NCBI GenBank assembly: GCA_022701275.1
Contig: CP031740.1
Coordinates: 4,537,001-4,601,000 of the forward strand
Direction of reading: 5' to 3'
DNA: 64,000 bases
From: Microcoleus vaginatus PCC 9802
GTDB lineage: Bacteria > Cyanobacteriota > Cyanobacteriia > Cyanobacteriales > Microcoleaceae
In this document: positions 16,875 through 36,131 of the stretch, piece after piece
Position numbering within the stretch: position 1 is the first letter of the stretch
How the letters are laid out: each line of letters begins with the position of its first letter
Translations under genes and position numbers: made by a program
The notes under the pieces: generated by a model
Told to the model about the DNA's origin: nothing
Database searches by the model: none
The model's input: only the letters and a program-made list of their open reading frames with translations

Positions 16875-17933
16875 ATGACAATCGCAGTCGGACGCGCCCA
16901 GACCGAAAGAGGCATCTTTGATGTACTCGACGACTGGCTCAAACGCGATCGCTTCGTCTTCGTAGGCTGGTCTGGCATCCTGCTATTCCCCTGCGCCTAC
17001 CTAGCCATCGGTGGCTGGTTAACAGGCACCACCTTCGTCACATCCTGGTACACCCACGGTTTGGCAAGTTCCTACCTCGAAGGAGCCAACTTCCTCACCG
17101 TAGCAGTCTCAACCCCAGCCAACAGCCTCGGACACTCCCTGCTGTTCCTGTGGGGCCCCGAAGCACAGTGGGACTTCACCCGCTGGTTCCAACTCGGCGG
17201 CCTGTGGACATTCGTAGCCCTCCACGGCGCTTTCGCATTGATCGGCTTTTGCCTGCGTCAGATTGAAATCGCTCGTTTGGTAGGCATCCGCCCCTACAAC
17301 GCCTTAGCATTCACCGGCCCCATCGCCGTGTTTGTTTCGGTGTTCCTGCTTTACCCCTTGGGTCAATCAGGCTGGTTCTTCGCCCCCAGTTTCGGCGTCG
17401 CAGCAATTTTCCGCTTTTTGTTATTCCTGCAAGGCTTCCACAACTGGACGCTCAACCCGTTCCACATGATGGGCGTTGCAGGCATCTTGGGCGGCGCGCT
17501 GTTGTGCGCTATCCACGGTGCAACCGTAGAAAACACCTTGTTTGAAGACGGCGAAGGCTCAAACACCTTCCGCGCCTTCAACCCAACTCAGTCAGAAGAA
17601 ACCTACTCGATGGTTACAGCTAACCGCTTTTGGTCGCAAATCTTCGGAATTGCCTTCTCCAACAAGCGCTGGTTGCACTTCTTCATGCTGTTCGTACCTG
17701 TCACAGGCTTGTGGATGAGCTCCATTGGCATTGTCGGTTTAGCATTAAACCTGCGCGCCTATGACTTCGTATCACAAGAATTGCGCGCTGCTGAAGATCC
17801 TGAGTTTGAAACGTTCTACACTAAGAACATTCTGCTTAACGAAGGCATTCGTGCTTGGATGGCTCCTACGGACCAACCCCACGAAAACTACATCTTCCCT
17901 GAAGAAGTTCTGCCTCGCGGTAACGCTCTGTAA
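16875..17933 (+). CDS. psbD: Photosystem II D2 protein, stand-alone copy
   Basis: The 352-residue protein is D2, the reaction-centre subunit of photosystem II in the thylakoid membrane that binds QA. Tyr160 (TyrD) and His189 next to it, His197 (P680 ligand), and His214 and His268 (non-haem iron ligands) are all in place by count. Family length and both termini are normal. Unlike the psbD-psbC operon copy, no psbC start overlaps the end; a strong terminator follows at 18008. This is therefore the monocistronic psbD2-type gene, often the high-light or stress-responsive copy. Confidence 0.97.
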
Positions 17934-18007: not shown

Positions 18008-18045
18008 CAAAAAGCTCCCGCCACCAGGCAGGAGCTTTTTGTTTC
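18008..18045 (+). terminator. Rho-independent terminator after psbD
   Basis: CAAAAAGCTCC and GGAGCTTTTTG form an 11-bp stem around a 12-base loop, ending in TTTTTGTTT. A weaker GGGTAA/TTACCC hairpin lies just before it (about 17970-17999). Confidence 0.9.
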
Positions 18046-18504
18046 CAGGATTCGATCGAATTAGCGCCCTAAAAAAAGTTGATTTTGTACAAAAACCAAC
18101 TCTGCCTGTAGCTAGAACAACTTGTGTCTTTATATCTGGTGAACTCTCCTATCTGGCAAGAAATCGAGCGGCCTTTCCCCGCCGCCAGAGTTGCAAAGCA
18201 CCTGATAACCGCAGAGCCCGGATTCTGAAAAAAATATAGGCAAATGGCTGAAACTGCGATCGCCCGCTTGCTGTAGAGATCGATCAAAGACCTTGCTGCT
18301 GCAGTAATTTCACCCAATCTTGCAAAAATCTCAATTTGCATCCCCCCACTTCTAATTCCTTGTGTTATTCTAATAATTGTGACTACTGGAATGATACTCA
18401 GAACGCAAGTTCTTCTGGTAACGCTGGCAATGGCTAGCGCACAAATCATCACCTTAAATCTTGTATTTAGGTGATGTGCGTTCCAATATTAAGCCATTTA
18501 GCTA
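18046..18504. other. Gene-free stretch with a hairpin
   Basis: No convincing gene is seen in 460 bases. ATCACCT(T)AAAT and ATTTAGGTGAT (about 18448-18475) form an 11-bp hairpin with one bulge and loop CTTGT. It could belong to the structured element that follows. Confidence 0.5.
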
Positions 18505-18774
18505 AACCTGGAGGTGATGCCCATGATAGAAAGTAGTAAACGCATGGGTCATCAGATTGGAAACTACCGGCTGTGCGCCGGGGCCGCTCACTAGCAGTCA
18601 GCCGTCGTCTCCAACTGGAAACGACTTCCACGGGGAACCAGGCTGAGCTAGGGATTCTCCCGGCAGTCAGGTTCTAATCTGAAGACCCGCTAGACCGCTC
18701 TCACCTCAAATAGTGTTAAATCTTGAGTATTAAAACTTGAGACTAAACGCTATTGGTGAGAGCGGATAGTTTTT
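18505..18774 (+). ncRNA. Candidate structured RNA or leader upstream of the pterin dehydratase
   Basis: The stretch is GC-rich, non-coding in all frames and full of nested complementarity. TGATGCCCATG pairs with CATGGGTCATCA (one bulge), then CCGG-7-CCGG, GCT-CACT-AGC inside GGC...GCC, GTCGT-12-ACGAC, and finally a long stem CCGCTCTCACC (18695-18705) with GGTGAGAGCGG (18755-18765). That last stem continues, after a TCA bulge, through AATAGTGTT/AACGCTATT, and is followed by TAGTTTTT. The 3' hairpin resembles a terminator. It could be a free small RNA or a cis-regulatory leader of the gene at 18836. It matches no RNA family I can name with confidence. Confidence 0.45.
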
Positions 18775-18835
18775 GGTCAGGATTTCTACAAGTGGGCAGT
18801 TAATCTGCCATTGCTAATCCCAAAGAAAAAAAATT

Positions 18836-19117
18836 ATGGCTGAGCTAATTAACAATACTGAAATTAAAGAGCGCGCCAGTCAATTGTCAGGTTGGACAAT
18901 TGAAGGTAAACAACTGCGCTCTACCCGTTTATTTAAAGATTTTATCGAAGCGATCGCCTTTGTGAATAAGTTGGTCGCCCCCTCAGAAGCCGCAGCACAT
19001 CACCCAGACATAGAAATCTCCTACAACAAAGTTACAGTTAACTTGACAACTCACGATGCCGGAGGCTTAACTGAGAAAGACTTTGCGCTAGCCCAAGAGA
19101 TTTCTACCCTAGATTAA
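18836..19117 (+). CDS. Pterin-4a-carbinolamine dehydratase
   Basis: The 93-residue protein has the family signature AAAHHPDIEISYNKVTVNLT plus a downstream THD, with the catalytic histidines in the HHP motif. The enzyme (PCD/DCoH, phhB) dehydrates 4a-hydroxytetrahydropterin. In cyanobacteria without phenylalanine hydroxylase a role in pterin or molybdopterin recycling has been proposed. Length and termini are normal. It is the first gene after the structured element and may be regulated by it. Confidence 0.93.
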   Translation: MAELINNTEIKERASQLSGWTIEGKQLRSTRLFKDFIEAIAFVNKLVAPSEAAAHHPDIEISYNKVTVNLTTHDAGGLTEKDFALAQEISTLD

Positions 19118-36028: not shown

Positions 36029-36117
36029 AACAGCTTAGCTAGGGGTGCCCGAATATCCGGGCTGAGAAAACACCCTTAGAACCTGAGTCTGGGTAATACC
36101 AGCGGAGGGAAGCTGTT
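36029..36117 (+). promoter_or_regulatory. TPP riboswitch (THI element) upstream of thiC
   Basis: AGGGGTGCCCG, CCGGGCTGAGAAA, ACCCTTAGAACCTGA and GGGTAATACCAGCGGAGGGAAG are the conserved THI-box blocks in order. AACAGCTT (36029-36036) pairs with AAGCTGTT (36110-36117) as the closing stem P1. It ends 17 bases before the thiC ATG, so it probably works by hiding the ribosome site rather than by termination. Confidence 0.97.
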
Positions 36118-36131
36118 TATCAAGGACATAA

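Follow-up and report, generated by a model that had tools for sequence, protein, structure and literature searches.

An element lying between psbD (16875-17933) and the PCD gene (18836-19117) of a 6.7 Mb cyanobacterial chromosome combines a conserved structure, an open micro-ORF behind a strong Shine-Dalgarno sequence (SD), mutually exclusive helices and promoter-like and terminator motifs, and it is present as a single copy per genome. We read it, with a probability of roughly 60%, as a small RNA gene of the ncl0160 type, free-standing and translated, in which translation would operate a switch between three sequence elements named A, B and A'. The window referred to below is the whole stretch of DNA that was analysed, 64,000 nucleotides in length, and the features of the RNA are placed in it as follows.

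18361..18371, + strand: predicted extended -10 promoter, TGTGTTATTCT, with the transcription start predicted near 18378
18447..18476, + strand: genus-specific leader hairpin, CATCACCTT...AGGTGATG, found only in close relatives, the conservation of the core beginning downstream of it
18494..18502, + strand: conserved 5' motif of the CCGYTTAGG type, here CCATTTAGC, seen in alignments
18510..18518, + strand: SD, GGAGGTGAT, fully complementary to the 16S 3' tail, overlapping element A
18516..18525, + strand: element A, the 5' arm of the SD hairpin, GATGCCCATG, 10 pairs
18523..18594, + strand: micro-ORF, MIESSKRMGHQIGNYRLCAGAAH and stop, 23 codons, an open frame in 180 homologs
18543..18553, + strand: element B, the anti-SD arm within the ORF, CATGGGTCATC, partner of A in the truncated RNA and of A' in the full rod
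18546..18688, + strand: long rod, closed by the stem GGGTC/GACCC plus YCAGATTGGAA/TTCTAATCTG, covariation in 96 sequences, consensus of 30
18684..18688, + strand: core of element A' (GACCC), the 3' arm of the closing stem of the rod
18690..18774, + strand: intrinsic terminator, a conserved stem and T-run, core stem pairs in at least 94 of 95
18836..19117, + strand: gene for PCD (pterin-4a-carbinolamine dehydratase), a neighbour outside the RNA, here 62 nt past the T-run

The preliminary description had placed a highly structured stretch at 18447-18774, in gene-free DNA before a pterin dehydratase gene and ending in a long stem with a T-run, and these points were borne out. The interval from the end of psbD at 17933 to the start of the PCD gene at 18836 is free of genes, with a terminator-like hairpin 3' of psbD at about 18014-18043. 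The minimum free energy of 18447-18780 (+ strand) is -133.9 kcal/mol compared with -93.2 +/- 6.6 kcal/mol for dinucleotide shuffles (z -6.2; none of 100 shuffles as good), and the final stem, CTAGACCGCTCTCACC...GGTGAGAGCGGATAG followed by TTTTT, occupies 18690-18774. The extent given for the element held for a conserved core of about 18494-18774 but not for the first hairpin (18447-18476), which is confined to close relatives. The 5' arm CATCACCT of this Microcoleus-type leader hairpin could also pair with the SD (AGGTGATG), and an SD-like sequence is repeated in its 3' arm.

Comparative covariance analysis, which had been suggested as a check, showed strong covariation when 96 dereplicated cyanobacterial sequences were submitted to RNAalifold. 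The closing GGGTC/GACCC of the rod and the stem adjacent to it have undergone abundant compensatory change, with up to 44 double changes per pair, one rod-stem pair being GC in 41 sequences and AT in 37. Up to 48 double changes per pair were counted in the terminator stem, and further stems were CCGGCTG/CAGTCAGG and CCGGGGC/CTCCCGG. Judged by this covariation, the stems of the rod and of the terminator are real RNA helices. The 3' arm of the rod is strongly conserved and carries the CU-rich stretch UUCCUUCC in many homologs, and 5' of the SD the sequence TGTGYTAT recurs in most cyanobacterial homologs, which fits a promoter belonging to the RNA itself. A search of the window and 15 homologous loci against Rfam 15, also suggested as a check, assigned the RNA to no known family at the gathering threshold; at E <= 10 the stretch gave chance-level matches only, such as the plant MIR473 on the terminator hairpin, and ARAGORN detected no tRNA or tmRNA. 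The RNA is like 6S RNA in its long rod-like fold, its length of about 200 nt and its single copy, but it fails the RF00013 model, with no match at E <= 10, and the true 6S RNA of the genome lies elsewhere, at C1:6597021-6597208. The sole Rfam match of the window at gathering scores is a TPP riboswitch (RF00059; 71.3 bits) at 36031-36127 on the + strand.

Most of the cyanobacterial genomes sampled, the marine picocyanobacteria apart, carry the RNA. A DNA search found it in 90 of 99 relatives, with a core running from near 18494 to the terminator, and an independent scan with a pattern, covering one genome per species, gave at least 111 cyanobacterial loci. A covariance model built on 30 cyanobacterial sequences was run on 146 genomes sampled from across the phylum and matched 57 of them, once each; these comprised 48 of the 50 genomes of the same order and just over half of the rest of the class, and among the 146 genomes there was no match outside the class. 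Most members of one family with genomes of 1.7-2.6 Mb, presumably the picocyanobacteria, were left unmatched by the model. Plasmid and phage records contained no match to the RNA, and the ORF-start pattern was not found in viral contigs. Class-wide conservation together with covariation strongly supports the small-RNA half of the earlier proposal of a small RNA or riboswitch-like leader, in which the 23-codon ORF and the SD switch had been overlooked.

The SD was compared with the 16S tail of the same genome (GGATCACCTCCTTT). Their complementarity extends over 9-12 nt in nearly all of 180 copies of the RNA, against at most 8 nt at 42 mechanically picked control ORF starts of the window. A further two matches to 16S rRNA, both incomplete (model 9-873 and 986-1035), were noted at G000 C1:5028954-5029947 and 135018-136011, with one full copy elsewhere. 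The frame behind the SD is kept open, with 3 stop codons within the first 22 codons in the ORF frame versus 275 and 537 in the other frames of the 180 copies, which were not dereplicated for these counts. The ORF is exactly 23 codons long in 166 of the 180 and mostly 22-24 in the rest, length changes are almost always of whole codons, and the stop codons interchange (TAG 104, TAA 75, TGA 1). All 180 copies start with ATG, a count that is biased because most loci were fetched by patterns demanding ATG or xTG. There is no excess of variation at the third codon position (entropy 0.48, 0.58 and 0.57 bits by codon position in the 180 copies), so that selection is shown for the openness of the frame and not for the amino acids. 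An open frame together with RNA constraints could have a cause other than translation.

These properties recall ncl0160, a small RNA first seen in Synechocystis (Mitschke 2011) and discussed by Brenes-Alvarez (2016; PMC4734099), where homologs in 83 genomes are described with a conserved ORF of 23-25 amino acids, an RBS that is always present, mostly ATG starts, and the stops TAA 47, TAG 34 and TGA 2. Both are widespread cyanobacterial small RNAs with an ATG-initiated ORF in this range behind an RBS, in which TAA and TAG are common stops and TGA is rare. Because the descriptions fit so closely, it is very likely that the present RNA is ncl0160, an identity that comes from matching descriptions and not from sequences. 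The cyanobacterial RNA was known in outline; covariation, the A-B-A' switch and the Chloroflexota relatives described below are new as far as searched and, like the synteny, are absent from the parts of PMC4734099 available to us. In our literature search ncl0160 was named in no further paper, and queries with the peptide or SD sequence returned none, leaving the 2016 mention, given the inferred identity, as the only study found of an RNA that is also missing from Rfam.

The peptide itself is alike across cyanobacteria (M.[DE]SSK..G...SRLCAGAVL), and searches of Pfam and NCBIfam with it gave no match. Its similarity, and the recurrence of SKRMG in the peptides of Chloroflexia, would suit a functional 23-aa product whose expression is merely tuned by RNA structure. 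Synonymous change is not in excess, however, the most conserved residues are encoded by paired stretches of the RNA, and the C-terminal halves differ between the phyla; we consider a functional peptide distinctly improbable. Codons 4-5 are AGT AGT almost invariably, and for this reason two or more tandem stops stand in the +2 frame in 91% of 100 dereplicated copies, compared with 15% after synonymous randomisation; the figure is 71% in 28 Chloroflexota ORFs. A constraint at the RNA level would serve as well to explain the constancy of AGT AGT. Codons of the AGTAGTAA type (18529-18540 of the window and homologs) are almost never recoded, Chloroflexota included. The missing codon-position signature would also suit a trans-acting small RNA, base-pairing or protein-binding, whose short ORF is incidental, and so would a free-standing conserved gene with a terminator and a highly conserved 3' arm with its CU-rich stretch. 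Yet the disparity in stop codons between the frames, and a start, SD and stop position that are fixed in two phyla, are hard to account for without translation, and make an incidental ORF quite unlikely.

The helices formed by A, B and A' exclude one another: B pairs either with A or, through its GGGTC, with the GACCC of A'. Eight of the 10 pairs of element A are kept in 79-96 of 96 sequences and the other two in 61 and 66. Variation in the A:B pairs is limited to one side, so that their support comes from constancy and a shuffled control rather than from covariation. When truncated and full RNAs were folded alongside shuffled controls, an exchange of A for A' as partner, over at least 4 nt of B, was seen in 87% of the 92 cyanobacterial RNAs and in 26% of the controls, and the corresponding values for Chloroflexota were 73% and 18%. 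Computed along transcription, the median for an unpaired SD rises from 0.21 at its minimum to 0.50 in the full rod in cyanobacteria and from 0.14 to 0.34 in Chloroflexota, a predicted change in accessibility of only moderate size, which counts against the reading given next.

Our preferred reading of a translated small RNA with a switch may be envisaged in the following way. A sigma70-type promoter and a terminator, both belonging to the RNA gene itself, would delimit the transcript, and during transcription B, which is inside the micro-ORF, would pair with the SD region A and hide the SD. Once made, A' would capture B into the long rod and release A, so that a 30S subunit could bind the very strong SD and the 23 codons could be translated. 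Translation would unwind the rod along its 5' arm as far as the stop codon towards the apex, and after termination the RNA could refold. Translation would in this way be the operator of an RNA switch that exposes or hides the conserved 3' arm. Transcription and translation in the present organism, and the order of folding, are what we infer from these features, and the downstream effect would most likely be regulation in trans by the 3' arm, with read-through into PCD in some lineages. Dual-function (translated) small RNAs such as SgrS/SgrT, SR1 and RNAIII are likewise structured and have a short ORF and their own terminator. The present RNA differs from them in that its ORF shares sequence with the anti-SD arm and with the 5' side of the main fold, and in its much wider phylogenetic range.

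Recurring neighbours in cyanobacteria are psbD on the 5' side and PCD, a GAF-HD protein and an SLH porin on the 3' side, which we take to be such from sequence features and general knowledge. PCD lies within 1.5 kb downstream in about two thirds of the copies, and in several lineages its ATG is found 11-40 nt past the T-run (TTTTTGGAGAATTTTATG in L062/L073; 18 nt in L093), leaving no room for a separate PCD promoter there; in these lineages PCD is probably expressed by read-through. Leader-peptide attenuators of the trpL and ermCL type consist of a short ORF, alternative helices and a terminator, and these classic parts are all found here, as would be expected if the RNA were a cis-acting leader that attenuates transcription of PCD (elsewhere of other genes) and whose leader peptide is encoded by the micro-ORF. 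Unlike those attenuators, the RNA has no constant downstream gene: PCD is missing from the first 1.5 kb downstream of 63 of its 180 copies, where the RNA nevertheless persists, and its Chloroflexota neighbours are unrelated and often on the opposite strand. The switch helices furthermore exclude the terminator, whose stem shares no bases with the A' arm, so that no mechanism is apparent by which the switch could inactivate it. Attenuation in cis is for us an unlikely explanation. That a riboswitch for pterin or folate controls PCD, a possibility raised because this gene lies next to the RNA, is very improbable: PCD adjoins the RNA in many genomes, but the RNA is retained where PCD is absent, Chloroflexota copies have unrelated neighbours, and an Rfam riboswitch match is absent. 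The copies that lack PCD, the RNA's own promoter-like element and conserved terminator, and the location of Chloroflexota copies near other genes argue against any riboswitch-like leader of PCD. In some Microcoleus genomes (L005, L012, L013) a TnpB-like gene, by eye of the IS200/IS605 type, is inserted near the RNA.

The pattern scan of one genome per species also gave at least 6 loci in Chloroflexota, with one more copy on inspecting the matches listed, and a wider scan found the pattern in 7 of 400 genomes and its reversed control in none. At E <= 0.01 the model trained on cyanobacteria matched 28 of the 41 genomes in the class to which Herpetosiphon belongs, exactly once in each, and likewise 10 of 41 in the class that includes an Anaerolineales genome, with E-values down to 7e-11. 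Among the weak matches, with E near 0.002-0.007, L267 and possibly others lack the motif and may be false. The Chloroflexota loci have the same SD, a rod that differs in sequence, and a stop codon towards the rod apex, and their ORFs of 14-18 codons mostly start with M-x-(x)-S-S, with SSKRMG or SKRMG in several. Since the model had been trained on AGTAGT and the SD, these features are partly selected for in the Chloroflexota copies; the rod/ORF layout is not. Most A:B positions are paired in 19 of 19 aligned copies. RNAalifold of the Chloroflexota copies recovered A:B and not the rod, for which the basis is single-sequence folds and compensatory changes judged by eye. A T-run within 190 nt is found in 13 of 28 loci by a strict pattern, and Herpetosiphon has a similar 5' motif, ACCGCAAGGGATAAAGGAGG.

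That the RNA is retained as a single copy by most of the cyanobacteria sampled and also in another phylum, with a near-perfect RBS, makes a basic role likely. We propose only tentatively, and with the odds against it, that the translation-operated switch is common to Cyanobacteriota and Chloroflexota and that the micro-ORF exists so that the ribosome flips the fold. If this were true, the switch could for example detect mature 30S subunits that are free and make a regulatory 3' arm accessible, and the RNA would stand for a class of regulator that is both new and ancient. The two phyla have built the A-B-A' layout from different sequences, and mutants of it can be tested directly; with the covariance model, the RNA could be annotated in many genomes. 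As for the Chloroflexota neighbours, a LysM-like lipoprotein gene is often found 5' of the RNA in Chloroflexia, and in three Anaerolineales copies (L117, L171, L205) genes for the B12-binding subunit of methylmalonyl-CoA mutase and a MeaB-like GTPase lie directly 3' of it. In L217 and other Herpetosiphon loci, as judged by eye, the RNA adjoins a stretch that resembles 5S rRNA and is on the opposite strand.
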